DNA of 29,557 nucleotides, from positions 1-29,557 of IMG/VR virus record IMGVR_UViG_3300017765_000027. One strand, given 5' to 3'. Both the position numbers and the translations under genes were made by a program. This document shows, in pieces, positions 3,501 to 26,346 of the stretch. Numbering within the stretch: position 1 is the stretch's first letter; each line of letters begins with the position of its first letter. The DNA comes from a virus. The notes below the pieces were generated by a model. The model was not told the DNA's origin and did no database searches. It saw only the letters and a list, made by a program, of their open reading frames with translations.

Positions 3501-6500
3501 AATAAAAATGCGCTTGCTTTATCTGCATACCACTCTTCAAATGGGAAAGCTCTGTCTTGATAATTATATCCGGGCTCGCCCCTTACTTCTCTAGTAAATA
3601 ATGCAAAAGACTCATCAGCATAAGCTCTATACAAAGCTTCTCCTTTTTTAAAATCTGCTTCGGTAATCCCAAGGTCTTCTATAAATTCTTCACTACCATA
3701 CCGTCCACCTCGTTCTTCCGAAAGAAATCTACTAAGTCCAAGTCTTGCACTCTCAAATTTAAATAATACATGTCCTAATTCATGCGCAAGTGCATAATTC
3801 ATAAAAGTGCTTTTAGCAGCATTTTGGACAAGGGGGTCTTGATCTTGTAACTGGTTTTCTATAAAAGCAGAATCTGGGTTAAGAACTACAAACGCATATT
3901 TTGGTAGTCCTTTAAGTGGTCCGTCATTATGCATTACACTTAAAACAGATGCGGGTTGGCCCGAAGCCCTATTACTATTCTGCATATTCCTAACTACCAT
4001 ATTTAAAGGTGCACCAGTTGTAGTTTTCATGTCGGTTGGAAAATTAACTTCATCATCTAAACCTAAAACAAACACTTTTGTCGTTACTCCAAAACCTTTC
4101 ATTTTTTCAGACAATTTACTAATAAAACGTTCACCAGAGGTATCGCCTACATCTTTAGTAAATTTTGGATCTTTAATATCAAAAAGATTTGCAATCCCTT
4201 GACTTACTTTTATTTCTCCCAACTCCATGTCTATTGCGTCTGGGTCGGTTTCAAATTTAGTATTAAATACAGGTGTTCCTTTGTACGCTGCGCCTTCTTG
4301 CCCTTTAACTTTTACAGGGGGTTGCGCTAAGATTATTCCTTGTGCTAACTGCGGAAAAATATCCATTAGCATTTTGTTACCTAAATCTGTTTGTTCTACA
4401 GTTGCGGCTACCTCACTTATGGGTGTTTTTTCCATAGGAATGCTACGAGGTTTCGCCATGGTATAAGAAGAAGCTCTTGAACCTGCGCCGTTTAAAACTT
4501 CTATATTGTTATCTCTTATAAAGTTGGTTATTGTCGCTGCTGAAGTTCCGGGATTAACAATTAAAAAAGGTTTACCAAGTTCTTCAGCAAACTTAACGGT
4601 TAGTCGAGAACCGCTGCCGAGTGACCCATCTTCTTTAGTCAAAATAATAGTACCGTCAGAATCTTCAACGTTTTTTCTAGTTCTTGGTGGGTACTCTGAG
4701 GATTCTCCTTCTACTACATTAAACTGAGGCCCTAAAGAAAGACTTACTCCACCTTCTACTTTAAAACCTTTTGGAGCAGTACCACCAGTTTCTAAACCCA
4801 TCGCTTTTGCCATATAAAGAAAAAACTGGTCACCACCAAGTTGCCCACCTGATATTATTCTTTTTAATGGTGTTTTTTCATTTAATTTATCTAAACTACT
4901 TTGTTCTGCTTCTGTTAAAGTTTTACCGTCTTGTACTTTCTTCAATAGAGCTGCTTGTCTTTTTCGATCTTTTCTAGGTTGTTCCTCTTTTTCTAGTCTT
5001 AAACGCATTTTTTGTTGCTCTTCCGCTGCTTGCGCTTGTCTTTGTAAACTTACAGGGTCTCTTTCTAAAGACGAATCAATTGGGGGTGGAGACAATGTAG
5101 CACTTTCAAACCTTGCATCGCCTCGTAAACTCATTTCGCTTGGGATTAAAGGGTAGCGTTTTTCTTTTTGTGCCTCGGTTCCTTCTAAAACTAAATCTTT
5201 AGATTCTGTTACAAAAATTTTCTTACCATTTCTATATTGAGGTACTGCATGTCTGACTGGAGGAAATCCAATAGTTTCTTGCGGGGGTTGCGCTCCTAAA
5301 GGACCTTGAAAATCTTGGTCATCCCCGACAGCTTCTCTCATATCTTGATCTCCACCGAGAGGTTTTTCTAAATCAACTTTCTTGAAATCTCCAAACTCAG
5401 TGTTCAACTCATATTGTAAATTGTTGTACTGATACTCTAACTTTGTTAACTGTCTACCGATTGATTTTTGTCGCTTAATTAAACTTCCACGTTCTTTTTC
5501 GGATATACCACGATTTTTTATTTGGGTCTCTAAATTTGCGTATAGTTTGCTAACCGGCGCTATCTCTGCTTCTAAGTCTGCTAACTCATCCAATCTGCTG
5601 GTTAAGCTTTTAATACCCCTTGTAGGTATGGTAAATAAAGACTCGCTACCACCTTCTTCTATATATCTTTTACGAGCTAGACTATTAGCAAGGGCGTTTA
5701 TGTCAGATTTATCAACAAATATTCCAGCTGTAGTAGCAAACCCTATTCCACCTAGCTCTTGTTTTACATCTTTTAAGATATCTAAATATTTTTGAAATTC
5801 TAAGGAACTTACCTCTCTCGCTTCTATCGATCCAGTTAAAGAAAATTGTTGTAGCTCGATTGGACTAAGTAATTGTGCAGGTTTAGTTGGGTCTATTCTT
5901 CTATAAAACATCGGTACATCTGCTAAATTTTGACCCTCAGTACTTACGAGTTTTGTTTCATTAGTCATTGGTGTGTAGAGGTCTTCTTTCATAACCACTT
6001 CAAACCCATACTTTTTAAACTCCGCAAAAATTTCGGGCACCATAGTCGCTAAAGCAATGTTATAGGCTCTAGTTCTATTACCTCCTACACTTTGTAAGAG
6101 CTCTTCTATACTCATAGTAAAATCTTGTTTTATTTGAGGAAAGATTTTTACTGCTTGAGTTAATAAAGTATATAAATTAATAGCTACATCATTCCCAGCA
6201 AAATTAACTTCTTTATCTCCATACCCTATAGTGGCACCCGCTTCTGCATTCGTACCTCTTATTTTAAAATAGGAACTAGCCTGTGATACCTCACCCCCGC
6301 CTGTCGTAGATAAAAATTTAAAACCTTCTATAACTGCTGTTTCAACTAAATCTAAAACTCTAGCTTCTACAGTTTGCGGCTCAAAGGTACCAAAAACATA
6401 AGCATTGGCATCGTCGGGATCTTGAATAATTGTTAAATCAGGACCAATCTCTGGGTCTGTACCAGCTCGGCTATCTCGTTGCCTAAAGTATTCTCTTAAT

Positions 6501-14837: not shown

Positions 14838-15974
14838 TTAAAATGCGCAATCTACTCTGATTACACCAAAGTCTTCATTCTGACCAGAAATGTCAGAGTT
14901 GTAGACTGGTTTTTTAAGACCCATGATCTTACCGATAGAAATACCGTTTTGGTTTCCATAGTCGAAAGTGTCTTCAACTATTTCAGGCAAACCGATATCT
15001 GCCATAGCAAGAGCTTGAGCTCCACAGAATATGTTAGCAGCGAAATCAACATCACTACCAGATCCACCTTTCTGAGTACCTGAGGTACCTTGAGAAGTGT
15101 TTGGTACGTGTCTGAATTCGTGAACCATAACGCCGTCAACCATTAAGCTAGAAGATCCAGCAAATAGTTCGTTGTTTGGTCCTCTGATACCAGCGCTTCT
15201 TACGTTTGATAAGAAGTCAGAATCTAGTTTCAGATCAGCCATTACTTGTGGAGTAACAAAAAGATGATACATCTCTTCATTACCATTTCCTCTCATACCT
15301 CTAATGTATTGGTCTTTAGCAAATGCTTTCAACTCAACGATAGTGCTATAAGACATTTTGTCAGTAGCAGCTAAAGCAGAAGTGTCACCAGCAACTAAAC
15401 CATTAGTTGCGTCTACTCTTCTGTGTCTGTTAGAAGTAGGAGCAGTTACATCACCATTAAAGGCAAGGTCAGACAAGTTAGCACCTGAGCCTAGTACTGG
15501 TCTAGTCGCAGCAGAACCACCGATATTGTTGTTCTTTCTGTTGTAGTCAATACCAGCCAAAGTTAAGAATGCAACTTGGTCTAGTCTGTCCGCCATTGCG
15601 TATGCAAGTGCGTCTCTTGAGTGCTCACGGAAGTTGACAACAGATTTTTGATCCGCTAAACGACCAGATAGTCTGTTCGCAAATCTTAATTGATCTAATT
15701 GTACAACGATGTCGAATGCTCTTAATGCTTCTTCATTACCTTCGAGAGTGTTGTCACCAACGATACCATCACCAGTCATGTCAGCTAAGAGTGTTAATAC
15801 AGCTCTAGCTCCTTTTTCTGATTGAGTAAGTTCATTTATTCTCTGAACCATGGCGTTGGGGCCACTACCCGCAAATTGGTTAATGAAGGACATGTTTCGA
15901 GCTACTCGCCAAAAATCACGAGACCAGATAGTAAGCTGTTCACTGTTCAACGCGCTGAAATTTGTATTAGCCAT
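14838..15974 (-). CDS. Major capsid protein, N4-gp56 family
   Basis: A 378-residue protein that builds the icosahedral head. Its N-terminus (NSEQLTIWSRDFWRVARN near residues 9-26), the FAGSGPNAMVQRINELT segment near 35-51, the GDGIVGDNTLEGNEEALR block near 69-86, and the later FREHSRDALAYAMADRLDQ and AFAKDQYIRGMRGN segments match the N4-gp56/DUF4043 capsid family with HK97 fold. Length is about normal for the family. A strong GGAGG ribosome binding site lies four bases before the ATG. Upstream is a 212-base structured gap, and downstream is a strong terminator, so the gene may be expressed as its own high-level unit. It follows a scaffold gene, as usual. Confidence 0.9.
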   Translation of the reverse strand: MANTNFSALNSEQLTIWSRDFWRVARNMSFINQFAGSGPNAMVQRINELTQSEKGARAVLTLLADMTGDGIVGDNTLEGNEEALRAFDIVVQLDQLRFANRLSGRLADQKSVVNFREHSRDALAYAMADRLDQVAFLTLAGIDYNRKNNNIGGSAATRPVLGSGANLSDLAFNGDVTAPTSNRHRRVDATNGLVAGDTSALAATDKMSYSTIVELKAFAKDQYIRGMRGNGNEEMYHLFVTPQVMADLKLDSDFLSNVRSAGIRGPNNELFAGSSSLMVDGVMVHEFRHVPNTSQGTSGTQKGGSGSDVDFAANIFCGAQALAMADIGLPEIVEDTFDYGNQNGISIGKIMGLKKPVYNSDISGQNEDFGVIRVDCAF

Positions 15975-16186
15975 TAGGCCTCCAAATAAAAAATTAATAA
16001 AATAACCAATCGCTATTTGGGGCGATATCCCGTATACCCTTTATCGTTGGGATACGATATCGTTAATTTAACGAGCACGACCTCGAACAGTTAACGTCGT
16101 TGTAGACGAAAAAACGATTTTTATACTGAACGACCAGTTGTTGGATATCGTTCCAACCAACGAATTCTTTAATACTATACTACTAT
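15975..16186 (-). promoter_or_regulatory. Structured intergenic region upstream of the capsid gene
   Basis: This is the only long gap in the minus-strand operon. It contains an imperfect inverted repeat (CGATATCCCGTATACCC at 16023-16039 with GGGATACGATATCG at 16049-16062), a near-palindrome CGTTAATTTAACG at 16061-16073, and a hairpin GTTGTTGGA at 16137-16145 with TCCAACCAAC at 16152-16161. The word GATATC or CGATATC recurs three or four times. No T-run makes a classical terminator. It may hold a capsid promoter, an operator or a mRNA-stabilising leader; this is inference. Confidence 0.45.
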
Positions 16187-17227
16187 TTAGTCAAAGTCAC
16201 CACGCATTCTGCGTAAAGTTTCTTCTGGTAGTGCACCAAATTCATCATCAGACAACACATTTATGTCTACTATTTTCTTATTTTGAGTAGACTCACCTTT
16301 CATTTGAGGTGGTTGTGACTGTGAAGCTTCTACTTTTTTCTTGACTGTAGCTTTTGCTTTTTTATCTTGTACAGCTTGAGTAAGTTTAGGAGCAGGATCT
16401 GATGCTTCTGAACCGTCACCTTGTAATAACTCAGGTTTTTTACTTAAGAGAGTTACTTCAGTAGCTTTTGCTAAAGAATCAGCAGCTCCATACCCTTGAT
16501 ATATAAAAGCATCTCGTAATTCCATAACTTCATTAGTTAATTTTTCATCATAAGACTTACTTTTTTCATTAAATATAGGAAACACATCCATTATTTCAGT
16601 AGCCTTTTGATTTAACTCATGTAGCTCACGATCTTGTTGTACAGTTTGACCCATTTTACTTTGCATTTCAGACATAACCTGTTCTCTTTCAGCAGTTCTT
16701 ATCTCGTTTCTTAACAAAGCAGCTTTTTCAGTCTCACCTTCTAAAACTAAGTCTTGATAATCTTTTTCCTTCGCAACAAAGTCATACTCAGGAGCAGCAT
16801 CTTCAGCAGGTTTTTCCTCCATGTCTTGAAGTCTTTTTTGCATTTCTTTATTTTTTGCAAGTACTTCGTCAAGACGAGACTTAGGCACCATAGGTGCTTT
16901 TGGTTCTTCTACCTGTTCATCTTCCTCCACTGCTTCCACAGGTTGCTCATCATCTGTTGGTACTGGGTCTTCGCTTGCTTCAACTGGTTGTTCTTCTGTT
17001 GCTTCAGTTGTTGTTTCTTCAACTTGCTCCTCTGCAATTTCTTCTGTTGTTTCTTCTGCAACAGGTTCTGCTTCTGTTGTTTCTTCTTCTTGAGCTTCTT
17101 CAACTTCTTCCTCCGTGTTTTCAAAGTTCATATCTACTTGAAAAGGTTGTACATCCTCTTCGGTTTTTGCATCAGCACCGGGCATTCCCTCAAATACTAA
17201 TTCTTCTGTGTTTTTATCTTCAGCCAT
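16187..17227 (-). CDS. Capsid scaffolding protein
   Basis: A 346-residue, strongly acidic protein lying between portal and capsid genes, the usual place for a scaffold. Residues about 30-115 are low-complexity Glu/Thr/Val/Pro repeats. Residues about 118-200 form a long charged coiled coil (VLAKNKEMQKRLQDMEEKPAED and onward). The C-terminus (about 285-346) is basic and then short helical, ending DEFGALPEETLRRMRGDFD, as expected for the part that binds the capsid shell. An AGGAGG sequence precedes the ATG, and the start overlaps the stop of the portal gene (TAATG). No protease motif is visible. Confidence 0.8.
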   Translation of the reverse strand: MAEDKNTEELVFEGMPGADAKTEEDVQPFQVDMNFENTEEEVEEAQEEETTEAEPVAEETTEEIAEEQVEETTTEATEEQPVEASEDPVPTDDEQPVEAVEEDEQVEEPKAPMVPKSRLDEVLAKNKEMQKRLQDMEEKPAEDAAPEYDFVAKEKDYQDLVLEGETEKAALLRNEIRTAEREQVMSEMQSKMGQTVQQDRELHELNQKATEIMDVFPIFNEKSKSYDEKLTNEVMELRDAFIYQGYGAADSLAKATEVTLLSKKPELLQGDGSEASDPAPKLTQAVQDKKAKATVKKKVEASQSQPPQMKGESTQNKKIVDINVLSDDEFGALPEETLRRMRGDFD

Positions 17228-19329
17228 TATCTACCTCCTGATTTCATAGCTTCAACAGCAACTTTAGATGCTGCTTGGGTTTGGGTTTGGTCTTTCCTCA
17301 TGTCGTTCGTTAATGAAGATAACTGTTGACGTAAGGCAAGTTCTTGTTGTTTCATCTCCATCTTAGACTGTATCTCAGCCACTTTAATTTGTGGGTCTGC
17401 AGCAGTGCCTTGAGCTTTTGCCATATTAAGTTGAGATTGAGATTGTAAATTCTGTACTTCTGCTTCCATTTTAGCGATTTCAAGTTGAATTTTTTGTATT
17501 TCAGCTTGTGCTTGGAAAGCTTGTATTTGAGCCTGTTCTTCTGTCATTGGTTCCATTCCTTGCATTTGACGTATACGTTGTGCAACTTCGCCTTTCTTAG
17601 CTAAGTGTGAGTAATCTACAATTAAGTCGTCTGGTATTGGTACACCAACCTGCCTTAAAGAGATTGCTTCAGCAAACTGTACTTCGTCATAATTATCACG
17701 AGCCGGCATAGTACCGACCACTACTTTATACTCACCTAAAGTTAAATCATTAATAATGTCTCCTTCAGGGGTAACTTGGTTTACTACAATAGGTACTTCC
17801 GGTTTCATTGGATCATTTTCATCTGTAATCTGTATTAACCTTTCCTCTGTGTAATAAGCCTGAATTAAACGCAACACGTGTTCTGCTAAATACTGCCTAG
17901 TCTTTTGTAGATTATCCAATGGTACTTGAATCATTAGAACACCACGGTTTTGTTTTGCTTGTATAGCTACTCCTGATACCTCAGGACTGTCTGTACCCAA
18001 CATAGCATCACTAATACCACTAATTGTTTTTATATTAGCAGCAGCTTTTTGACCTAATCTGTCTAGGCCGGTGGGAATCTGATTTGGTGGTATCTTCGCA
18101 GGGGGAGATGAGCCACGATTATACTCTAATACTAAACCAGTTTCCGCACCGTGTTCTTCTAAATCGTCAGCAGTCATACCATTTAATGACCCTGTTTCTA
18201 CAATCCAACCGCTGTTAGCTGTAGTGTTTACAATATGTAATTCTTGTGAACTAATTTTATTTAGTTGTTCTTGTGGGGATATTAAGTTTCTTACCATACC
18301 AAATGGTCTACCTCTTCTCCAATAAGGAAAGTATGGGACAATTGTGAAACACTCATAAGGGGACCAATCATCGTGTAATACAACTTTATCTGCTGTCACA
18401 GTCCAACGTACTTTACGGTCTAGTCTAGTAATTATCTCTAAACCATACTCATCTGCAAATTTCTTTTTCTTTCTTTCACCCCAGTTGCCGGGTACTTGTC
18501 GCATATCACCAGTAACAGAATCGACATAATAAGTACATTCTTTAAGCTGATAATACTGCCTTTCGATTACTCGAACTGCTCGCATTTGTCTATTTTCTTC
18601 TGGGTTAGTAGTAGAAGATTGATTGTACTCTACACCAGTATACGTATCACCATAACGGGTTTCTTCATACTCTACAGAGTCTTGCCCCATAGTATTACCA
18701 TATTCTGCTGCTACTCTTAATTTATCCGCAGCGTCTTGTCCATACTGTTCTTCTACTTCATCAAGACTCATCCACTTGGTTTCAAATATCTCATTCCATG
18801 TTTTAGGATCATACTCCTTGGCGTCAGGGTCAATCAGAATATCTAACGGATCCTTGGTACTTATACGCACTTCTCCTTGGATATGATCCGTGAAATCTAT
18901 TCTTACATCAAAATAGCCTCGGTCTTGAATAAGACCATCGGCAAAAATTGTAGACTCTAACCAGTCTAACTTATTAGTATCAGCTATGTGTATGTATAGT
19001 TTATTTAATACATCAGCAAGTTCCTGAGTACCATTACCTTTTGGTTTAAAATTAACGTCTGCTCTTCGAGTGCTTTGTTCACCAAGCACGGTATTGATTG
19101 TTGGTAATATAGTATTAATTGTAAGAGCTGGACGCCCTTCATCATCTAACATCGCTACATCAGCTGGATCCCATTGATTACCACGATAGAAAGCATCGCA
19201 TTTTTTTGCGGTTTCTATATATTCTAAGTGGCCATTGTCACGCGCACGTTCGTAACGCTCAAACTGATTAGTTGCTATAGAATGCTCTTCTTCTGTACTT
19301 AACTTTTTCTTCTTTTTGCTGTAATTCAT
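17227..19329 (-). CDS. Portal protein, P22-like
   Basis: A 700-residue protein that forms the dodecameric DNA channel at one head vertex. The N-terminal region has AKKCDAFYRGNQWDP near residues 42-56 and RPALTINTILPTINTVLGEQ near 66-85, both typical of P22-type portals. The middle contains YYQLKECTYYVD and VPYFPYWRRGRPFGMVRNLISPQEQLNK, and further on SGISDAMLGTDSPEVSGVAIQAKQ. The C-terminus (about 590-690) is a Gln/Met/Ala-rich coiled coil, corresponding to the barrel of this family. Length is usual for P22-like portals. It is coupled to the terminase (TAATG) and to the scaffold. Confidence 0.9.
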   Translation of the reverse strand: MNYSKKKKKLSTEEEHSIATNQFERYERARDNGHLEYIETAKKCDAFYRGNQWDPADVAMLDDEGRPALTINTILPTINTVLGEQSTRRADVNFKPKGNGTQELADVLNKLYIHIADTNKLDWLESTIFADGLIQDRGYFDVRIDFTDHIQGEVRISTKDPLDILIDPDAKEYDPKTWNEIFETKWMSLDEVEEQYGQDAADKLRVAAEYGNTMGQDSVEYEETRYGDTYTGVEYNQSSTTNPEENRQMRAVRVIERQYYQLKECTYYVDSVTGDMRQVPGNWGERKKKKFADEYGLEIITRLDRKVRWTVTADKVVLHDDWSPYECFTIVPYFPYWRRGRPFGMVRNLISPQEQLNKISSQELHIVNTTANSGWIVETGSLNGMTADDLEEHGAETGLVLEYNRGSSPPAKIPPNQIPTGLDRLGQKAAANIKTISGISDAMLGTDSPEVSGVAIQAKQNRGVLMIQVPLDNLQKTRQYLAEHVLRLIQAYYTEERLIQITDENDPMKPEVPIVVNQVTPEGDIINDLTLGEYKVVVGTMPARDNYDEVQFAEAISLRQVGVPIPDDLIVDYSHLAKKGEVAQRIRQMQGMEPMTEEQAQIQAFQAQAEIQKIQLEIAKMEAEVQNLQSQSQLNMAKAQGTAADPQIKVAEIQSKMEMKQQELALRQQLSSLTNDMRKDQTQTQAASKVAVEAMKSGGR

Positions 19330-20978
19330 TAAGAACTCATAGCTGATTTACGTTTATCACTCTTGACTAGATCTTTAAGTTTATCTCGCCAAGATGGTTC
19401 ATGTTCTATCTTCTCTACAAAAGTAGCGAATTCTGTCATCATTAATCCTATCCATGCTAACGCATCCACTTGGTCATCATGTACCCCGTTTGGAAAACGC
19501 AAAAGTTCCGCAATCAGCGGACCAACCCATACCGGATCTTTCGGAAAGTATACCATGCCTTGTTGCATTCTACCTTGTATTGCTCTAGCTCTCGCTTCCT
19601 TGTCTCGTCTACCTACTTTTAAATCTTTAAAGTAAGCTTCGTTAAGTCCACGTTCTCGAACACGTTTTTGTAGAAACGGACCTAAGGCCATCTCTATATG
19701 ACCCTTCTCGATACCCACAACATGTGGTCGCCAAGTTTCATACAAATCTAAGATCTGTTCAACAAGTTCAAAACCGTCATACTTCCCTCGTATACAATCT
19801 ACTACGTATAAATTATCGTATTCATCAACGCCAACAACTACTCCTACAGAGTAGTCATTACGTTCTCGTTGACCAATCGCTAAATCCCATGCGCAATAGA
19901 ACCGTAATCTGTCAAAGTCTACTTCATTTTCGTCGTAATACCTAATCATTTCTCGATTAAAGTACTCACCTTCGTCCGATACTGGGTTTTGTTGATATAG
20001 CGCTGACCAGTCTCTCGGACCTACCGCTTTTTGAATCTGGGTCAGAGCTTCTGAGCTGTATCTCTCTGGGTGAAGCGCGTCGCCCTTTTCTCTAAACTCT
20101 TCGTCCTTCTCAGCGAGGGCTGGATACTTAACAACTTCCCACTGATCCGCGCCCGCGGCTGCTGCTTGTAGCAACCTACCAGCTAAATCATCATCGTGCC
20201 ATCGGGTAAGAATTACGAGTACACCACCACCCGGAGCGAGTCGTGTATACGCAGTAGATGTATACCAGTCCCAGACTGCATCCCGATTGTACTCGGATTC
20301 TGCGTCCTCTCTGTTCTTAACTGGGTCATCGATGACTAACACGTGCGCTCCTTTACCGGTAATACCACCACCAACACCCGCTGCTACATAACCACCGCCC
20401 TTGGTTGTATTCCATGATTCTACGGACTGCGAACTAGGGTCGAGCGATACACCAGAAAAGACATTTTTAAAATTAGGTTCTCTCAGTTGATGACGAACCT
20501 TACGACTAAAGTTCATGGCCAACGATCCAGAGTACGAACAACTAATAAACTCATGTTCAGGGTTCTTGCCCAAATGCCAAGCTGGAAACGCAACAGAAGC
20601 CAAAGTAGATTTACCATGTCGGGGTGGCATAAACAACATAAGTCTAGGTGACTTTTGATTATTTACATCTTCACTAAACTTCTCCAACCGTAGACATATG
20701 TCCTTGTGTACCCAACCCGGAACGTAGTCTGGATTGAAACGCTCAACGAATGGTAACAAGTGTTTACGGGCCAAGGCTCGTAAGGCAAGTTCTTTTTGGG
20801 CTTTTAATTGTTCAGTTTCTTCTGGAGTTGGTTCTTCTATAGGTTCTTCAATTACAGGTTCTTCAACTCTTTCTGCTTCGTCCGCTTTACAGTACACGCA
20901 GATCTGATCGTCGCTCGGGTACAACGTATCTGGGTGTAACGCTTTACACGTTAGGCATTCAATCTTTTTTATTTCCAT
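19329..20978 (-). CDS. terL: Terminase large subunit with N-terminal four-cysteine extension
   Basis: A 549-residue DNA packaging motor. The ATPase has a Walker A motif PPRHGKST at about 118-125 and a Walker B VLVIDD at about 213-218. The RNase H-like nuclease begins near AWDLAIGQRERNDYSVG and ends with HDDQVDALAW near residue 510. The N-terminus is unusual: Cys8-x2-Cys11 and Cys27-x2-Cys30 form a possible zinc ribbon, followed by an acidic Pro/Glu-rich linker to about residue 56 before the usual domain. An in-frame TTG one codon upstream is less likely than this ATG. The gene overlaps the 83-residue gene by about 20 bases and is coupled to the portal gene. Confidence 0.92.
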   Translation of the reverse strand: MEIKKIECLTCKALHPDTLYPSDDQICVYCKADEAERVEEPVIEEPIEEPTPEETEQLKAQKELALRALARKHLLPFVERFNPDYVPGWVHKDICLRLEKFSEDVNNQKSPRLMLFMPPRHGKSTLASVAFPAWHLGKNPEHEFISCSYSGSLAMNFSRKVRHQLREPNFKNVFSGVSLDPSSQSVESWNTTKGGGYVAAGVGGGITGKGAHVLVIDDPVKNREDAESEYNRDAVWDWYTSTAYTRLAPGGGVLVILTRWHDDDLAGRLLQAAAAGADQWEVVKYPALAEKDEEFREKGDALHPERYSSEALTQIQKAVGPRDWSALYQQNPVSDEGEYFNREMIRYYDENEVDFDRLRFYCAWDLAIGQRERNDYSVGVVVGVDEYDNLYVVDCIRGKYDGFELVEQILDLYETWRPHVVGIEKGHIEMALGPFLQKRVRERGLNEAYFKDLKVGRRDKEARARAIQGRMQQGMVYFPKDPVWVGPLIAELLRFPNGVHDDQVDALAWIGLMMTEFATFVEKIEHEPSWRDKLKDLVKSDKRKSAMSS

Positions 20979-21210
20979 CAATCTCTAGCTCTGCTTCAGT
21001 TTCAATAACTACTCTAGCTCCGCAGGGTAGGATAGGTTTATCTGTACCACTATAACGAACAATAGAATCACCTTTTATAGTTACTTCATGACAATAGGTA
21101 TTGTTCTTACCTTCTTTCACAGTTATAACTGGCTCATTCGTACCATGTTTTAAGTTAGCCTTTATTTTATGTTGGTTAACGTGAATGTATTTAATCTTTC
21201 TTTTCTCCAT
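20959..21210 (-). CDS. Small hypothetical protein between terminase subunits
   Basis: An 83-residue protein beginning MEKRKIKYIHVNQHKIKAN. It is beta-rich, with alternating hydrophobic and charged residues (EPVITVKEGKN, HEVTIKGDSIVRYSG, GARVVIETEAELEID), and lacks any catalytic motif I recognise. It overlaps the small terminase gene at its start by 20 bases and the large terminase gene at its end, so the three are expressed together. Its place suggests a packaging accessory or a decoration protein, but this is only inference. Confidence 0.6.
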   Translation of the reverse strand: MEKRKIKYIHVNQHKIKANLKHGTNEPVITVKEGKNNTYCHEVTIKGDSIVRYSGTDKPILPCGARVVIETEAELEIDGNKKD

Positions 21211-21706
21211 CCTTTTTAGGCATAAGATATTGGTTATCAGTTCCCGCTATCTTGAGTAATTCAGAATCTGGTAGTTTTTCTAGTTGTTCTACAGTTCTAT
21301 CCAGATTGATGTTGATTTGTGTAGCATGCTCTGGAGCAAATAGACCGTGGAGCTTGCACAATGAATCGGTGATAACTTTCTCTTCTGTCGCTGTTACCGA
21401 TTTACGGTGCGCTTCTAAGTACATGCTTGTCGCTGTTTGTTTATCAAACTTAATTTCTTCTTTAAACTCTTCGCGCATCTTAGCAATCATCTTTTGTACT
21501 GCTGGTTTTTTAAATACTTTATAAACATGCTCATTATCCCTATATCCAGCTGCGCGTCCCGCTGCAGCTTTCGACATGCCACGGAGATGAAAAAGGATGA
21601 GGCGTTCTTCTTGAACACTTAGCTCATTAAGCTTGACATCGACATAGGGATAATGAGACTGAAGCTCGGCCCTTTCTTGTTCAAAATTTTGGTCTTTATC
21701 AGTCAT
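21191..21706 (-). CDS. terS: Terminase small subunit
   Basis: A 171-residue protein. Residues about 28-62 hold a helix-turn-helix typical of small terminases (LSVQEERLILFHLRGMSKAAAGRAAGY), followed by helical oligomerisation segments (PAVQKMIAKMREEFKEEIKFDKQTATSMY and KVITDSLCKLHGLF) and a charged tail ending PKKDGEKKD. It recognises the packaging site in the phage genome and loads the large subunit. The start overlaps the HNH gene by eight bases. Position one small gene before the large terminase supports the call. Confidence 0.78.
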   Translation of the reverse strand: MTDKDQNFEQERAELQSHYPYVDVKLNELSVQEERLILFHLRGMSKAAAGRAAGYRDNEHVYKVFKKPAVQKMIAKMREEFKEEIKFDKQTATSMYLEAHRKSVTATEEKVITDSLCKLHGLFAPEHATQININLDRTVEQLEKLPDSELLKIAGTDNQYLMPKKDGEKKD

Positions 21707-22184
21707 TTTCTTTGGATTCTACTATATTTTTAGCCCACCAATAAAGCTCATCTTCTTTTAATGTGTGTTTTATTATATTTGCTCTGCTACAAACCAGCTG
21801 AATATTGGTGACTAAATACTCAATATCTGGATCTATTCGATCAATAGAAGCGTTTAAACCTCTAGTACCACTACCATCTTTATGGTACGTCATAAACAGA
21901 CCGGTCAATGCACACTTACCTTTTTGTTTATCCCATAACTCTAAAACATCTTCTAATTCAATATCCCAAACAACTTTAGATTTTTCTTTTTTAGTTCTCG
22001 CGTGTTTAAGTTGGCCAAATAAACGAGTCAAATAATTTTGGGGTGTTGCGCTAGCATTCTTTCGTCGCACTGCATAACTACAAGCTTTACATTTTTTTGA
22101 GTGGACTTGTCCACGATCATTTGAGGTTTTAAATTCCTCTAGGGGCAGCTCCTTTTTGCAAGAAGTACATTTCCTCGTACTCAT
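21699..22184 (-). CDS. HNH endonuclease with N-terminal zinc-binding motif
   Basis: About 161 residues from the chosen ATG (MSTRKCTSCKKELPLEEF). Cys6-x2-Cys9 and a later CKAC pair near residues 33-36 form a possible zinc knuckle. The HNH core lies in the C-terminal half: KCALTGLFMTYH, then LNASIDRIDPDIEYLVTNIQLVCSRANIIKHTL, where the Asp, His and Asn-type positions of the family are recognisable. HNH proteins beside terminase genes can be needed for DNA maturation by the packaging motor in some phages; they can also be homing endonucleases. The first possible codon is a GTG at 22202, but the ATG at 22184 gives the usual N-terminus. It is the first gene of the minus-strand operon. Confidence 0.75.
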   Translation of the reverse strand: MSTRKCTSCKKELPLEEFKTSNDRGQVHSKKCKACSYAVRRKNASATPQNYLTRLFGQLKHARTKKEKSKVVWDIELEDVLELWDKQKGKCALTGLFMTYHKDGSGTRGLNASIDRIDPDIEYLVTNIQLVCSRANIIKHTLKEDELYWWAKNIVESKEND

Positions 22185-22206
22185 GCTTGCCCACTGTAGC
22201 ACAAAT

Positions 22207-22216
22207 TTTTACTAGA
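22207..22216 (-). promoter_or_regulatory. TCTAGT element upstream of the minus-strand operon
   Basis: The minus strand reads TCTAGTAAAA here, 23 bases before the ATG of the HNH gene, inside a run of A/T tracts (22205-22240). It shares TCTAGT with the plus-strand promoter-like elements. It may be the promoter of the packaging and structural operon. The match is only partial. Confidence 0.3.
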
Positions 22217-22454
22217 AAATTTTTTTAGTAAAATTTTTTTCTTTACCGCTCACACAGGGTCCTACTATCACTATCACTGCTAGCCCCTTCCCCGATTCCG
22301 GTTTTGGAACCTTGTTTCTAATTTTTCGTAGTTGGAACCTTGTCAGGTACCTACTGGTGCATTTAACAAGGACATGGCTAAAGCCATGGCATCAGGTGTT
22401 GGTTACAACGCTCGCGCGTTGCACCACAACTTTGAGCGCATACATTTGTTTTAG
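22217..22454. other. Divergent intergenic region, left part: hairpins and short repeats
   Basis: No gene is visible here. It contains a direct repeat TTGGAACCTTGT at 22304-22315 and 22332-22343, a CTACTATCA word at 22262-22270, and two perfect hairpins: CATGGC/GCCATG at 22373-22388 and CAACGC/GCGTTG with loop TCGC at 22406-22421. The region lies between the two divergent gene sets and probably carries control elements for both. Confidence 0.45.
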
Positions 22455-22561
22455 ACTAACCTCCAGCGAAAATTAAACTGCAATGCAAAGCATTGTCGGG
22501 TTCGCCACAGGCGACCGCGCAACTGCGCTACCCTCAGTTTAATTTGTAGCTTACGGTTAGT
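22455..22561. other. Cloverleaf-like multibranch fold
   Basis: Two nested arms, ACTAACC (22455-22461) with GGTTAGT (22555-22561) and AAATTAAACTG (22470-22480) with CAGTTTAATTT (22535-22545), enclose three consecutive hairpins. These are CAATGC-aaa-GCATTG at 22481-22495, TCGCC-aca-GGCGA at 22502-22514, and GCGC-aact-GCGC at 22517-22528. The 11-pair stem is perfect. The arrangement could be a structured RNA on either strand or a DNA cruciform. It does not have tRNA arm lengths or conserved tRNA bases. Confidence 0.55.
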
Positions 22562-22584
22562 ACTATCATGCGCTTACTCTGTTC

Positions 22585-22627
22585 GCGTCACTACTGACGC
22601 TCACTTTCACTCGGACGTTCCACGTCC
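22585..22627. other. Two further hairpins before the first plus-strand gene
   Basis: GCGTC-actact-GACGC at 22585-22600 and GGACG-ttcca-CGTCC at 22613-22627 are perfect five-pair stems. They continue the chain of hairpins between the cloverleaf-like fold and the terminator at 22638. Confidence 0.4.
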
Positions 22628-22637
22628 TTCGTGTAGA

Positions 22638-22657
22638 GCCGAACACGTTCGGCTTTT
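22638..22657 (+). terminator. Terminator-like hairpin before the first plus-strand gene
   Basis: GCCGAAC-ac-GTTCGGC is a perfect seven-pair inverted repeat followed by TTTT. It lies just upstream of a promoter-like element, so it may insulate the gene from upstream transcription. Confidence 0.55.
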
Positions 22658-22661
22658 AAAG

Positions 22662-22671
22662 TCTAGTTTAA
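22662..22671 (+). promoter_or_regulatory. Repeated promoter-like element, copy 1
   Basis: The sequence TCTAGTTTAA lies 33 bases before the chosen ATG at 22705, directly after a terminator-like hairpin. The same ten bases precede other plus-strand genes at 23152 and 23700, with variants at 25036 and 24845. The shared position suggests a phage promoter. Confidence 0.5.
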
Positions 22672-22704
22672 ATAGGGTGTAATTAACTTTTTATGGAGAT
22701 TAAA

Positions 22705-23082
22705 ATGTTTATTTTTAAAACTCAATTTGGAGAAGAATACATCTGTGAGTGTGTTGTTTCTCAGTATCGCGATGGCGGTGCGTTTTCTCTTCAGTTGATT
22801 GGCGCTGAAGACTCGCCTTATGAAGGTGAGCCCATAGCCATGGCTACAGTGAATCTACCTCACTACAACGTAGGTAGAAACAAAGATGGTCGAGTCCTCA
22901 CCTTCATTAAGGACTGGTCAGAAAACCAAGGCATCTTGGACCAACTCGTTGAACAAAATAAAGTTGAGCGAGTCTGTCGTCAAGGCGAACCTGTTAGAGT
23001 CCCGACAGGTTATGTCCAAGCCGACTTGGTTGAAGTTGTTAGCCATCAATTGGTTGCTGACTTCGAGAACTATCATAATTAG
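22705..23082 (+). CDS. DUF4313-like hypothetical protein
   Basis: About 125 residues from the chosen ATG (MFIFKTQFGEEYICECV). A GGAG six bases upstream supports this start over the ATG at 22693, which lies inside the same ribosome binding site. The pattern of a short beta N-terminus, EGEPIAMATVNLPHYNV near 50-64 and VLTFIKDWSENQGILDQLVEQN near 72-93 resembles DUF4313, a small family found in mobile elements and phages with no known function. It is the first gene of the plus-strand set and stands alone, with hairpins on both sides and its own promoter-like element. Conserved Trp and Glu residues in the IKDWSEN block suggest a compact fold. Confidence 0.55.
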   Translation: MFIFKTQFGEEYICECVVSQYRDGGAFSLQLIGAEDSPYEGEPIAMATVNLPHYNVGRNKDGRVLTFIKDWSENQGILDQLVEQNKVERVCRQGEPVRVPTGYVQADLVEVVSHQLVADFENYHN

Positions 23083-23095
23083 GTAGTTCTCTGTT

Positions 23096-23139
23096 GGCGG
23101 ATAGTCACAGCTATTCGCCGACTCGACGCTCCGCGCCGA
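23096..23139 (+). terminator. Hairpin pair after the DUF4313-like gene
   Basis: GGCGGATAG (23096-23104) pairs with CTATTCGCC (23111-23119) with one G-U pair and a six-base loop. A second weaker hairpin follows, CTCG (23122-23125) with CGAG (23136-23139). There is no T-run, so termination is uncertain; mRNA protection is equally possible. Confidence 0.4.
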
Positions 23140-23151
23140 GCGGCAAAGAAA

Positions 23152-23161
23152 TCTAGTTTAA
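23152..23161 (+). promoter_or_regulatory. Repeated promoter-like element, copy 2
   Basis: TCTAGTTTAA lies 26 bases before the ATG of the four-cysteine miniprotein, directly after the hairpin pair. It is identical to copies 1 and 3 over ten bases. Confidence 0.5.
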
Positions 23162-23187
23162 GGTAAGTAAATATAAAGGAGATTATT

Positions 23188-23364
23188 ATGGACGAATGTG
23201 ACTTTTGTAACAATGAAGCAATTGAAACACTAACTTTTGGCTATGAAACAAGGGGCGGAAGTTATTGTGAAGACGGGCATGTTTCTGTGTGTAAAGATTG
23301 TATTAACGAGCTTGGCAGAGAAGGATGTATTGAAGAAATTAAAAAAGGTGGAGAATGGATATGA
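23188..23364 (+). CDS. Four-cysteine zinc-ribbon-like miniprotein
   Basis: A 58-residue protein, MDECDFCNNEAIETL at its start and ending KKGGEWI. Cys4-x2-Cys7 and Cys35-x2-Cys38 are arranged as in a small treble-clef or zinc ribbon, with acidic residues between. An AAAGGAG ribosome binding site lies six to seven bases before the ATG. Its stop overlaps the ATG of the next gene (ATGA). Such small zinc proteins in phages often bind host polymerase, nucleases or nucleic acid; the target is unknown here. Confidence 0.6.
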   Translation: MDECDFCNNEAIETLTFGYETRGGSYCEDGHVSVCKDCINELGREGCIEEIKKGGEWI

Positions 23365-23471
23365 AAAATCTAAGTTATAGAAGAAAGAAACAGATAGCTA
23401 ATGAATTATATCTTTACAGGTATATGATGTTCTGTGTTTTGGGTTTTTGTATTGGCTATTTTGTAGGTTAA
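23361..23471 (+). CDS. Tiny membrane protein (36 residues)
   Basis: The peptide begins MKNLSYRRKKQIANEL and ends in one hydrophobic segment (MMFCVLGFCIGYFVG, residues about 22-36). The basic N-terminus before a single membrane helix predicts the N-terminus in the cytoplasm. It is coupled to the four-cysteine miniprotein by an ATGA overlap, so the pair may work together. Tiny proteins like this may be superinfection or membrane-modifying factors, or lysis-related, but nothing shows which. Confidence 0.5.
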   Translation: MKNLSYRRKKQIANELYLYRYMMFCVLGFCIGYFVG

Positions 23472-23479
23472 TCTCCCTT

Positions 23480-23505
23480 GGGGCGAAACGATATAGTTTC
23501 GTCCC
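23480..23505 (+). terminator. Hairpin after the miniprotein pair
   Basis: GGGGCGAAAC (23480-23489) pairs with GTTTCGTCCC (23496-23505) around the loop GATATA, ten pairs with one G-U. It is placed nine bases after the stop codon. No T-run follows, so it may stop transcription weakly or protect the mRNA end. Confidence 0.5.
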
Positions 23506-23530
23506 TCAAAAATTTCAAGTCATTAATCAG

Positions 23531-23593
23531 GGTGTGCGGACTGTGCCCACCTACTATCACGGTGTGCCGTCGGAGTGTGCCCACCTACTATCA
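23531..23593 (+). repeat. Tandem repeat ending in CTACTATCA
   Basis: The 18 bases TGTGCCCACCTACTATCA occur at 23542-23559 and 23576-23593, 34 bases apart, each preceded by a GGTGTGC word (23531 and 23561). The nine-base end, CTACTATCA, also occurs in other intergenic regions at 22262, 24585 and 24607. Possible protein-binding sites. Confidence 0.55.
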
Positions 23594-23679
23594 TCATTTC
23601 TTTGTTGGGGACCTACCGCCCCAACGCGCTCGCGCTTCCAGCGCTCGCAGATCTTCGCTCCTTACCAGTCGCTCAGTAG

Positions 23680-23696
23680 GGAAATCGGAGATTTCC
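23680..23696. other. Hairpin with three-base loop beside promoter-like copy 3
   Basis: GGAAATC-gga-GATTTCC is a perfect seven-pair hairpin with a GGA loop, ending three bases before the TCTAGTTTAA element. The hairpin type resembles single-stranded-DNA hairpin promoters of N4-type phages, but no N4-type polymerase is visible in this window. Confidence 0.35.
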
Positions 23697-23699
23697 AAA

Positions 23700-23709
23700 T
23701 CTAGTTTAA
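23700..23709 (+). promoter_or_regulatory. Repeated promoter-like element, copy 3
   Basis: TCTAGTTTAA precedes the 73-residue gene by about 59 bases, a longer leader than the other copies. A terminator-like hairpin lies inside that leader. Confidence 0.5.
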
Positions 23710-23720
23710 TTGAATTGGTT

Positions 23721-23741
23721 GGGAAGTATTTCCCTTTTTTT
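23721..23741 (+). terminator. Attenuator-like hairpin in a leader
   Basis: GGGAA-gtat-TTCCC is followed by seven T. It lies between the promoter-like element and the ATG at 23769, so it could reduce or control readthrough into the operon. The stem is short (five pairs). Confidence 0.4.
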
Positions 23742-23768
23742 AAATATATATATTACACGGAGAATATC

Positions 23769-23990
23769 ATGAGTAGTATTGTACTAAAGGTTTGTAGACC
23801 CTATGAAACTACCGACAAAGACGGGAATGTCGCTAAAGCAACTCGTTGGCCTTCCATTGGAAGAATTGTAACCCTTAAGAACGGTAATCAGAATATCCAT
23901 CTGGATTTCATGCCTGAAAAGTCTACTGACGGTCAGGGTTTTGAGACAATGTTCGCATTCAAGGAGCAAGGTAATGGGCAACAAGATTAA
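23769..23990 (+). CDS. Small hypothetical protein (73 residues)
   Basis: The protein begins MSSIVLKVCRPYETTDKDGN and ends GNGQQD. A GGAG lies eight bases before the ATG. A longer reading frame extends upstream to 23478, but it runs through hairpins, the tandem repeat and the promoter-like element, so the start at 23769 is preferred. The sequence is beta-rich with alternating strands (RIVTLKNGNQNIHLDFMP at about 32-49), which fits a small single-domain protein. Its end overlaps the next gene by 17 bases. Function unknown. Confidence 0.6.
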   Translation: MSSIVLKVCRPYETTDKDGNVAKATRWPSIGRIVTLKNGNQNIHLDFMPEKSTDGQGFETMFAFKEQGNGQQD

Positions 23991-24297
23991 ACTTGTCAAA
24001 GAAGGCACTAAGTTTGTTGGTAAAGCAACAGATACAGTCTTTTATTGGCTAGGTCGTGGTTTGGAGTCAAGCAATCAACTACTTGATAAGGCTAAAGAGT
24101 CCACACGCCATGGCATTGCTTCAAAAAGGCAAGACTCTGTAGCAGTTGAAGAAACTTTTGACCCTAAGTCAGAGTTTTTAGACTCTCTCAAGTCTTGGGT
24201 AGAGAAACCCGAAAATCAAGGCAAAGATATCCTTGATTATCAAACTGAAGACCCTGACGGGCTCTTCGCTAAACTAAAAGGAGAGTCTCATGACTGA
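23974..24297 (+). CDS. Small acidic/helical hypothetical protein
   Basis: A 107-residue protein from the ATG at 23974 (MGNKIKLVKEGTKFVGKATD), which has a GGAG eight bases upstream. The N-terminal half has a helix with FYWLGRGLESSNQLLDKAKE near 23-42. The C-terminal half is acidic and polar (EETFDPKSEFLDSL, then DILDYQTEDPDGLFAKL). It overlaps the genes on both sides (ATGA-type on the right), forming a three-gene unit ending with a tiny membrane protein. No family recognised. Confidence 0.6.
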   Translation: MGNKIKLVKEGTKFVGKATDTVFYWLGRGLESSNQLLDKAKESTRHGIASKRQDSVAVEETFDPKSEFLDSLKSWVEKPENQGKDILDYQTEDPDGLFAKLKGESHD

Positions 24298-24424
24298 GTT
24301 ATTCTATACTCTTGGTTGTATGTTCTTTATTACAACCATCTCAGCCCAGTGTATGCTCATATATACTTGGTTGAGAATGCATTATGACTTTGAGTCGTGG
24401 TTAAACGACGACGAAGAGAAGTAA
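24290..24424 (+). CDS. Tiny membrane protein (44 residues)
   Basis: The protein begins MTELFYTLGCMFFITTISAQ; one membrane helix spans about residues 4-27 and an acidic tail ends NDDEEK. The N-terminus is likely outside or in the membrane and the acidic tail in the cytoplasm, though that is only a charge-based guess. An AAAAGGAG ribosome binding site lies six bases before the ATG. It overlaps the preceding gene by eight bases and closes the three-gene unit. Confidence 0.55.
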   Translation: MTELFYTLGCMFFITTISAQCMLIYTWLRMHYDFESWLNDDEEK

Positions 24425-24431
24425 TTCTCCC

Positions 24432-24464
24432 CTAGGGCAGAGCTACATAGGTAGTTCTGTCCTT
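24432..24464 (+). terminator. Terminator-like hairpin after the three-gene unit
   Basis: AGGGCAGA at 24432-24439 pairs with TCTGTCCT with one G-U pair, beginning about eight bases after the stop codon. The flanks carry short T/C runs (TTCCTTTTC). Termination is plausible but not certain. Confidence 0.45.
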
Positions 24465-24516
24465 CCTTTTCGTTATCCGCCCTGCGCTTCGCTAGCCCGG
24501 AACCCCAGCCGACAAA

Positions 24517-24653
24517 GGTCACGACGCTGTCGTGGCCTATCTTTGGCCAAAGCAGAGCTTTGGCAGGTGGTCTCGGTGTGCCAACTACTATCATCGCACC
24601 ATAAGACTACTATCATCACGTAGTGATGTGGACTTCACGAGTAGTGGACCACT
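24517..24653. other. Dense cluster of palindromes
   Basis: GGTCACGAC-gct-GTCGTGGCC at 24517-24537, CTTTGGCCAAAG at 24541-24552, GCCAAAG-cagag-CTTTGGC at 24546-24564, CATCAC-gta-GTGATG at 24614-24628 and AGTGG-a-CCACT at 24643-24653 follow one another. Two CTACTATCA words lie among them at 24585-24593 and 24607-24615. No gene is visible. Replication or regulatory role is possible. Confidence 0.5.
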
Positions 24654-24681
24654 GTCTACGAGTCTTTGACGAGTGTCCGGG

Positions 24682-25005
24682 GTGTACCGGGTGTACCACC
24701 TTTGTACCAGCTGTAAAACAGCGTACCGGTACACCTACACCCCTTGTTTTTGCTGTGCTTTTTTCAAAAAAGCGCTAAGTGTACCGAGTGTACCACAGGA
24801 TTTGCGTTAGCTTTAGTAATCGACCGTGGACCGTGGTTATAGAATCTTAGTTTAAACTAACAATTAACCGGTACAAATGGTACACCTTCCACGAAACCCT
24901 GCTAACGCGGGGCTTACAGGTGTACCACCTGCTTTTTCTTCGTGGTACACCCAAACGTAGATCTGTAAACAAATCAATAACTTAGGGTGTACCACGGTGT
25001 ACCAC
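24682..25005. repeat. Iteron-like array of GTGTACC
   Basis: GTGTACC starts at 24682, 24691, 24779, 24788, 24920, 24987 and 24997; its reverse complement GGTACAC starts at 24728, 24879 and 24944. Most copies extend to GTGTACCAC or GTGTACCGG. Three pairs lie nine or ten bases apart, about one helical turn. A 14-base perfect palindrome sits in the middle (24847-24860). This is typical of protein-binding repeat arrays such as origins, partition sites or multi-copy operators. Which one is not shown. Confidence 0.65.
24847..24860. promoter_or_regulatory. Perfect palindrome containing the promoter-like word
   Basis: TTAGTTTAAACTAA is fully self-complementary and contains AGTTTAA of the shared promoter-like element; preceded by TC it reads TCTTAGTTTAA. 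It may be an operator bound by a dimeric regulator or two head-to-head promoter elements. Confidence 0.4.
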
Positions 25006-25035
25006 AAACGCGTCTTACCAGCCGCGTTTTATCAA

Positions 25036-25045
25036 TCTAGTTCAA
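25036..25045 (+). promoter_or_regulatory. Repeated promoter-like element, copy 4 (one change)
   Basis: TCTAGTTCAA differs from the main form by one base. It lies 26 bases before the ATG at 25072, the same distance as copy 2. Confidence 0.45.
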
Positions 25046-25071
25046 TTAAGTGTAATTAATGGAGAAATATT

Positions 25072-25203
25072 ATGAATGAATTAATGAAACATTTGGATGA
25101 AATGAAGACTATAAGTAAATTTACAGAGTCTGATTTGGAAATCCAATGCAAAATTAATGAAGAGTTAGCTCGTATGAAAGCTAGCTCAAATACAAATAGG
25201 TAG
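25072..25203 (+). CDS. Very small helical protein (43 residues)
   Basis: The peptide begins MNELMKHLDEMKTISKF and ends ASSNTNR. It is charged and amphipathic helical, rich in Met, Glu and Lys, and could form a short coiled coil. GGAG lies eight bases before the ATG, and copy 4 of the promoter-like element lies upstream, which makes expression likely despite the length. No family recognised. Confidence 0.5.
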   Translation: MNELMKHLDEMKTISKFTESDLEIQCKINEELARMKASSNTNR

Positions 25204-25229
25204 TCAATTACGGTATCTATTTACAGGTT

Positions 25230-25254
25230 GCATTTATGAAGGTAAATGCGTTTT
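25230..25254 (+). terminator. Terminator-like hairpin
   Basis: GCATTTA-tgaagg-TAAATGC is a perfect seven-pair stem followed by GTTTT, between the 43-residue gene and the 248-residue gene. Confidence 0.45.
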
Positions 25255-25285
25255 ATAAATCACTTTACTATATATAGGAGTTATT

Positions 25286-26032
25286 ATGAGTGAATATTTT
25301 GACCCAAGCGAACAAGAATCGAAAGAACTTGTTCCTGAAGTTAAATCTAAAATGAGTGACTACACAGAAGACACCATTGCAGATTCTGAAGGTGCAGAAC
25401 AACGTTCTGTGAAAGCATCAATCAGTCTACCTGATTTTTTCCATGTCAACTACAGGCTAGATGACACTGGTAACCCAACATTCAAAGATGATGTGGTTGC
25501 TAAAATCATGGCTATTTTTGACCAAAAGGTTGGTACTCAACCAACTTTTGAAGAAAAAGAAGGTCATGCACCAGTAGATGAGCAGATAGTCAAGTTTGAA
25601 GAATCAGTTAACAACATTGTTGTTGGCTTTCAAGAACTGACTATTGTTGACCCACAGTCAACTGGCTTGTCTTTCTTGCAACTATGCACCAGAACATGGG
25701 CAGAATTTGCAAGCATCTCTTACGATTATCAAACAGCTATGGCTAAAGCAGGCGATGAAATCCCTGACTGGTTGCTCGAGCGTGAACAAAAGATGTTTGA
25801 CCTTGGTCGTAAGGCAAGAATGATGTCTATGGCTCTTTCAGACCTTGACCATTCCTTTGGCTTGAAAGAAGTTTCAATTCAAAGAAACAGAGTTCAATCA
25901 GCAGTTGAGCAAAGATTGCAAAGACTTGCTGAATGGAACTTCAAACAGTATGCAGATACTTCTGGTAAAACAGCACTAAAACTTAATGGTGCAACCAAAG
26001 AGCATATGCAAACTATGTTTGATAACGCGTAA
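25286..26032 (+). CDS. Hypothetical acidic protein (248 residues)
   Basis: The protein begins MSEYFDPSEQESKELVPEV; the first 50 residues are acidic and probably disordered. The remainder is helical, with EESVNNIVVGFQELTIVD near 104-121, EFASISYDYQTAMAKAGDEI near 138-157, and a long basic/helical stretch RNRVQSAVEQRLQRLAEWNF near 204-223. GGAG lies six bases before the ATG. Codon use is less T-rich than the minus-strand genes, with frequent GGT/GCA/AAA. No family recognised. Its size and lone position with its own terminator upstream suggest a well-expressed early protein, but the role is unknown. Confidence 0.65.
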   Translation: MSEYFDPSEQESKELVPEVKSKMSDYTEDTIADSEGAEQRSVKASISLPDFFHVNYRLDDTGNPTFKDDVVAKIMAIFDQKVGTQPTFEEKEGHAPVDEQIVKFEESVNNIVVGFQELTIVDPQSTGLSFLQLCTRTWAEFASISYDYQTAMAKAGDEIPDWLLEREQKMFDLGRKARMMSMALSDLDHSFGLKEVSIQRNRVQSAVEQRLQRLAEWNFKQYADTSGKTALKLNGATKEHMQTMFDNA

Positions 26033-26043
26033 GCGTACAAAGT

Positions 26044-26171
26044 CCTACCGAGTTAATGTTTCGATTACTTGGTAGGCACAGAATTCGGCCCAATTTTCCC
26101 AATCAAGTCGAAGTTTAAGTAGCGGGCCGAGTAGGTTCAAAATAAACCTTTTCATAACTACTTAGACTTCG
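26044..26171 (+). other. Candidate structured RNA leader with interlocking stems
   Basis: Three inverted repeats occur in the gap before the 51-residue gene: CCTACC (26044-26049) with GGTAGG (26071-26076); TCGGCCC (26085-26091) with GGGCCGA (26124-26130); and CGAAGTTTAAGTAG (26109-26122) with CTACTTAGACTTCG (26158-26171), 13 of 14 paired as standard pairs. The third stem begins inside the loop of the second and ends outside it, so the two form a pseudoknot or compete. A smaller AGGTT/AACCT hairpin (26133-26149) with short T-run lies inside. It could be a cis-regulatory leader or a small RNA. Confidence 0.45.
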
Positions 26172-26190
26172 CATTAATACAGGAGAAGAT

Positions 26191-26346
26191 ATGCATCGTA
26201 GTAATCTACCAAGACCTTTTTCTAAAGGCGCAAGAACTGGCGACCGCAAGGTTATTTCATCAACTATAGTCAATGGTAAGACTGTGCAACAACAAGTTGT
26301 TTACTGTGCTAACGGCCAGTCAATTACCCGACACGAAAAGAAATAG
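26191..26346 (+). CDS. Small basic protein (51 residues)
   Basis: The peptide begins MHRSNLPRPFSKGARTGDRK and ends SITRHEKK. It is basic and beta-prone in the middle (VISSTIVNGKTVQQQVVY at about 21-38), which could be a small nucleic-acid-binding protein. AGGAGA lies six to seven bases before the ATG. It directly follows the structured leader, so it may be the controlled gene. No family recognised. Confidence 0.5.
   Translation: MHRSNLPRPFSKGARTGDRKVISSTIVNGKTVQQQVVYCANGQSITRHEKK

Follow-up and report, generated by a model that had tools for sequence, protein, structure and literature searches.

We analysed a 29,557-bp stretch of DNA from a marine bacterial virus, a linear virus record (IMG/VR IMGVR_UViG_3300017765_000027, positions 1 to 29,557; hereafter the window) with a leftward late arm and rightward early genes. 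A gene-free region of 647 bp (24425..25071), flanked by small conserved open reading frames (ORFs) at 24290-24424 and 25072-25203, holds an array of the 7-bp word GTGTACC, which, judged from sequence, is probably the replication origin of an NrS-1-type primase-helicase phage. Exact copies occur seven times on the + strand (24682, 24691, 24779, 24788, 24920, 24987, and 24997) and three times on the - strand (24728, 24879, and 24944), and the array spans 24682-25003. A preliminary description of this DNA had reported ten copies, seven forward and three reverse, within 330 bases of a gene-free region, several of them about one helical turn apart. All of this was borne out, the tandem spacings being 9, 9, and 10 bp. 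It also mentioned many palindromes; hairpins were somewhat enriched (nine terminator-like sites over 22150-26200, compared with 3.0 expected).

The word is not found at a similar density elsewhere: only four more copies lie in the remaining 29.2 kb, and about two are expected for the whole window. The clustering was assessed with a statistic corrected for word choice, in which any 7-mer was allowed. The densest 7-mer cluster per 330 bp had 10 copies in the array; outside it, the window reached 4, and 200 dinucleotide shuffles gave a mean of 3.7 and a maximum of 5. The array had no Rfam match at the gathering score, and a search of its DNA against cultured phages returned chance matches only.

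The sites are arranged around a core. The left outer sites (24682..24734) comprise GTGTACC at 24682 (+), 24691 (+), and 24728 (-), together with a degenerate TTGTACC at 24702 (+), which is an exact GTGTACC in most close relatives; GCGTACC at 24721 (+) is another near copy counted as a member of the array. They are followed by the left inner tandem pair (24779..24794, +), whose two iterons are 9 bp apart and oriented toward the core. The right inner pair (24870..24885, -) consists of a degenerate TTGTACC at 24870, likewise counted as a member, and GTGTACC at 24879. The right outer sites (24920..25003) are GTGTACC at 24920 (+), 24944 (-), 24987 (+), and 24997 (+). The inner pairs are 82 bp apart, start-to-start, and enclose a 75-bp core (24795..24869) with an AT content of 63% when the outermost bases are left off, rising to 83% in its richest 30 bp. 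We propose the core as a putative melting region. It contains a conserved element, CGACCGTGGACCGTGGTTA (24821..24839, +), with related forms in most of the nearer iteron types, which may be a priming or host-factor site.

This geometry was compared across 24 arrays of four word types, including that of the window. In 21 of the 24, two + words about 9 bp apart are followed by two - words about 9 bp apart, at a start-to-start distance of 82-86 bp; 84 bp corresponds to eight helical turns. Of the other three, one (G035) has only one such pair, at 80 bp, and the last two yielded none. In all cases measured, AT content was higher in the core (mean 0.66) than across the remaining array (0.53; genome mean 0.60), although these values come from related arrays and their p-values are not independent evidence. 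An element like GACCGTGGACCGTGGTTAT is present in most cores of the nearer types and missing from the deeper lineages. A prophage of Parendozoicomonas haliclonae carries fifteen copies of an unrelated word, GTAGAGG, yet its inner sites, at 95+ and 102+ facing 181- and 188-, repeat this arrangement.

The array is conserved beyond the window. It was present in all 11 viral contigs encoding the neighbouring 248-amino-acid (248-aa) early protein (83-100% identity), some of these arrays being cut by the contig end, and dozens of further relatives were retrieved through the next ATPase gene and through the array pattern itself. In close relatives whose sequence covers the site, the array is always retained with unchanged spacing and strand pattern, in a rigid layout (0+, 9+, 20+, 46-, 97+, 106+, 197-, 238+, 262-, 305+, and 315+). 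The array stays constant between strains while the flanking early genes swap. The wider family consists of phages of approximately 57-60 kb; its larger contigs have terminases sharing 73-83% identity with that of the window, and a primase-helicase search yielded 224 confirmed stretches. Across the family, syntenic arrays lie 0.8-5 kb from the terminase cassette and use lineage-specific words: GTGTACC, CTGTACC, ATGTTCC, GGTTCCA, CTGTAAC, and, on a single strand and in another layout, ACTGCCT. Position-wise counts defined an asymmetric 8-bp site, represented by GTGTACCR, CTGTACCR, ATGTTCCA, and TGGTTCCR. Spacers and core can still be recognised as homologous between the GTGTACCR and CTGTACCR types, and about ten dispersed copies share the first-base change. 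Such a concerted change is expected if a single protein reads all of the copies.

The preliminary description had named replication origins, partition sites, and multi-copy operators as possibilities. An array with many words on both strands, preceding early genes and close to where the two arms diverge, could be an operator or enhancer read by a phage regulator. However, it lies inside the rightward early region, 2.5 kb from the divergence point, sigma70-like promoters nearby are not above expectation (7 vs 7.2), and none of the core genes was recognised as encoding a repressor. Operators also do not typically have an AT-rich core enclosed by inward pairs at a fixed 82-86 bp, and we regard this explanation as improbable. 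The partition site parC likewise has arrays with helical phasing, and some relatives are prophages or carry integrases, as might suit a parS/parC-like site of a plasmid-like prophage state. Nevertheless, no ParA/ParM-like partner was found among the annotated core genes of the family, which occurs as viral contigs and integrated prophages; with nothing found in its favour beyond this resemblance, a partition role is very improbable, and of the three readings it was the origin that gained support. A phage attachment site (attP) was considered and rejected, since 19 of 21 records have no integrase and the integrase of one relative (G014) lies about 19 kb from the array.

Larger relatives encode DNA polymerase A, a PD-(D/E)XK nuclease, an SNF2-like helicase, and a DUF5906 protein of about 825 aa. 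A profile built from 30 DUF5906 proteins had a sole PDB match, the C-terminal region of NrS-1 polymerase (E 4e-35). The whole-protein model was poor in the middle (mean predicted local distance difference test score, pLDDT, 66) and matched NrS-1 and, more weakly, primase-polymerase folds of the archaeo-eukaryotic primase (AEP) type. When modelled alone, the last 136 aa (predicted structure, pLDDT 77) matched NrS-1 residues 624-718 (Z 6.3, 88 residues) and showed a weak fold match to the P4 origin-binding domain 1KA8 (Z 2.6). The gene for this protein, an AEP primase joined to a superfamily 3 (SF3) helicase, would lie beyond the end of the window record and is present in the nearest relatives. 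Among them, IMGVR_UViG_3300017744_000134, whose 248-aa neighbour is identical to that of the window, encodes the primase-helicase. Of ten bacterial assemblies in which a related terminase occurs, seven encode it too, and the other three are incomplete metagenome bins. We infer that the primase-helicase is the binder of the array.

If the array belongs to the primase-helicase, carriers of the enzyme with other virion genes should have one as well, and this was the premise of the DISCRIMINATING test. In NrS-1, all 11 copies of AGTGTAAC in 37 kb start within 17062-17370, right after the enzyme gene (14895-17051), whereas shuffles gave at most 4. A single exact TTTGGTTA lies within this array at 17198, overlapping an iteron. 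TTTGGTTA is the recognition sequence at which the NrS-1 enzyme starts DNA synthesis (PMC8718748); two copies of the start sequence have been spoken of (PMC7102993), compared with the one exact copy in the NrS-1 record. In Moraxella Mcat1, a CCCTGCAC cluster (32013-32294) also directly follows the primase-helicase gene, and Edwardsiella KF-1 presents a less clear case, with six GTATTATA within a gene-free gap. The Kochitakasuvirus phages KPP25 and phiR18 share with the family the gene order, a homologous primase-helicase (29% identical) and terminase (42%), and an array at the syntenic gene-free gap; they differ in the word, TCGTRACA, in a larger AT-rich core, and in having two arrays. In KPP25 (NC_024123, 64.1 kb), these lie at 26.4 and 58.3 kb (the second at 58257-58543), half a genome apart, with the first four sites alike and an AT-rich block in each. 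They may represent either two origins or an origin and another site.

The preliminary description could not match the array to a known origin. This no longer holds, as its layout matches both the NrS-1 array and origins of the type found in phage-inducible chromosomal islands (PICIs) and Staphylococcus aureus pathogenicity islands (SaPIs). NrS-1 polymerase (PMC7102993, PMC8718748) and the enzyme of the window's family have a homologous SF3 helicase and, by prediction for the latter, a related winged-helix end; in both cases closely packed copies of a similar word occupy both strands, and the NrS-1 array contains the recognition sequence of its enzyme. In contrast, the NrS-1 array is less symmetric and immediately follows the enzyme gene, and the NrS-1 enzyme is the replicative polymerase, whereas the window's family adds DNA polymerase A and separates array and primase gene by about 11.6 kb. 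In PICI origins, an AT-rich region lies between two sets of iterons (PMC6092414). SaPI Rep uses its C-terminal domain, apparently as two hexamers, to bind iterons that lie directly 3' of its own gene, and Cch2 of the staphylococcal cassette chromosome mec (SCCmec) behaves like SaPI Rep in vitro (PMC7581432). Words that differ between elements are common to these systems and the window's family, as is a helicase with a C-terminal origin-binding domain, which is putative in the family; the array of the window would work in a similar way. However, the family consists of autonomous tailed phages, and the window has terminase, portal, and capsid genes. The array is not a PICI origin, since the phage encodes virion proteins itself and, in the relative G013, 11.6 kb separate the array from the initiator gene, whereas a PICI origin lies immediately 3' of that gene. 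The alpha protein of P4 is also a primase-helicase, and the winged helix at its end (1KA8) binds repeats at the origin (PMC4234260), but it has a Toprim primase, and the fold match noted above is weak. The distance between the array and the initiator gene is what is new compared with known origins of this kind.

The AT-rich core between inward pairs, the fixed geometry with a drifting word, the initiator-type enzyme in the family, and the start site within the NrS-1 array, each computed directly, support the origin reading. In the mechanism that we propose, the 8-bp asymmetric iterons (NTGTACCR, with G first in the window) would be bound by the primase-polymerase/SF3 helicase through its C-terminal winged-helix domain. 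The inward tandem pairs, eight helical turns apart, would position two helicase assemblies that flank the AT-rich core. The core would then melt, the primase domain would begin DNA synthesis there, and two forks would depart, making firing bidirectional. The outer iterons may raise occupancy or set copy control.

Several observations weigh against an origin. In G013, the array (23539-23860) and the primase-helicase gene (35431-37908) are about 11.6 kb apart. An analysis of covariation with iteron type (partial Mantel tests, window identity, and specificity columns) singled out neither the primase-helicase (partial r 0.15) nor any other protein. Scans of phiA008, VPMS1, and four prophages (Vreelandella, Endozoicomonas, and Pasteurella among them) did not find an array. 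GC skew, proposed as a check in the preliminary description, has its minimum within 2 kb of the array in seven large marine genomes, including complete relatives, but regression placed most of the weight on gene strand, and we rejected it as independent proof of an origin. The remaining points concern packaging, the main rival, in which TerS rings would wrap the helically phased words of a pac or cos site and terminase would cut the core. The array always adjoins the start of the late arm, 0.8-5 kb upstream of the HNH-TerS-TerL cassette (19329..22202, -), as a packaging site would. In the window, this cassette comprises an EndoVII/HNH-like gene (21699-22202, -), a TerS-like gene (21191-21706, -), and the TerL gene (19329-20981, -); the portal (17227-19329) and capsid (14838-15974) genes follow in the same arm. 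Furthermore, contig ends are mildly enriched in the array, where eight contigs stop, including four at coordinates 109-126 of the array. In the otherwise different L073-type phages, a GTGTACC array adjoins a Terminase_2 TerS gene, and no primase-helicase was found in their longer relatives.

Other evidence argues against packaging. The second KPP25 array (58.3 kb) is far from the terminase (20-22 kb), and in NrS-1 and Mcat1, which have other body plans, the arrays come right after the primase gene. The TerS gene of NrS-1 follows its array, so the NrS-1 case alone does not exclude packaging; Mcat1 and the second KPP25 array weigh more. TerS similarity does not track the word (partial r -0.15), which is weak evidence, and the contig ends are scattered over 30-168 with no single base preferred; assemblies also break where a conserved block has variable flanks. 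On balance, we consider a packaging site unlikely.

Few marine phages have a mapped origin. The signature, an AT-rich core framed by inward iteron pairs at a distance of eight turns, can be searched for without knowing the word, and it ties the origin to an enzyme family able to start DNA without a primer. The lineages also offer natural word/initiator pairs for studying how origin and initiator change specificity jointly. The published claim that only phage satellites (PICIs) have a two-set iteron layout is put in question. More tentatively, and with doubt prevailing, the replacement of the word in concert across about ten copies within a fixed geometry might make sister phages of a widespread marine lineage mutually replication-incompatible, and tailed phages with self-loading primase-helicase replicons might generally use the PICI layout as their origin, in which case satellites may have acquired it from them.

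Additional features were observed around these loci. The 248-aa early protein used to fetch relatives (25286..26032, +), of unknown function, is encoded downstream of the array. The motif CTACTATCA(TC), which a small hairpin (CATCACGTAGTGATG) often follows, occurs on the + strand of the window at 22262, 23551, 23585, 24585, and 24607. It recurs 5' of early genes and also just upstream of the array in most relatives with other iteron types, and is possibly a phage promoter or leader element. TCTAGTTTAA/TCTAGTTCAA occurs just 5' of early genes at 22662, 23152, 23700, and 25036 (+), four copies compared with 0.33 expected. In two relatives (G041/G042; L240 53-325 and L241 2271-2686), ACTGCCT repeats on one strand, within GGTTCGG-like sequence, occupy the array region, where the iterons may be replaced or accompanied by repeats of another kind. 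In L073, six GTGTACC surround an AT-rich stretch at 7822-7931, and L071, L072, L083, L088, L094, L104, L110, and L112 are similar contigs. Repeats in L073 relatives (CCCGACC and others) are tandem repeats on one strand and do not compare with these arrays. A VRR-NUC-like 136-aa protein shared with L073-type contigs was rejected as a candidate binder, since by sequence it looks like a PD-(D/E)XK-like nuclease. Finally, a 2749-aa virion protein of the window (593-8842, -) contains a circularly permuted YpsA/SLOG domain (PF12694, residues 1329-1461).
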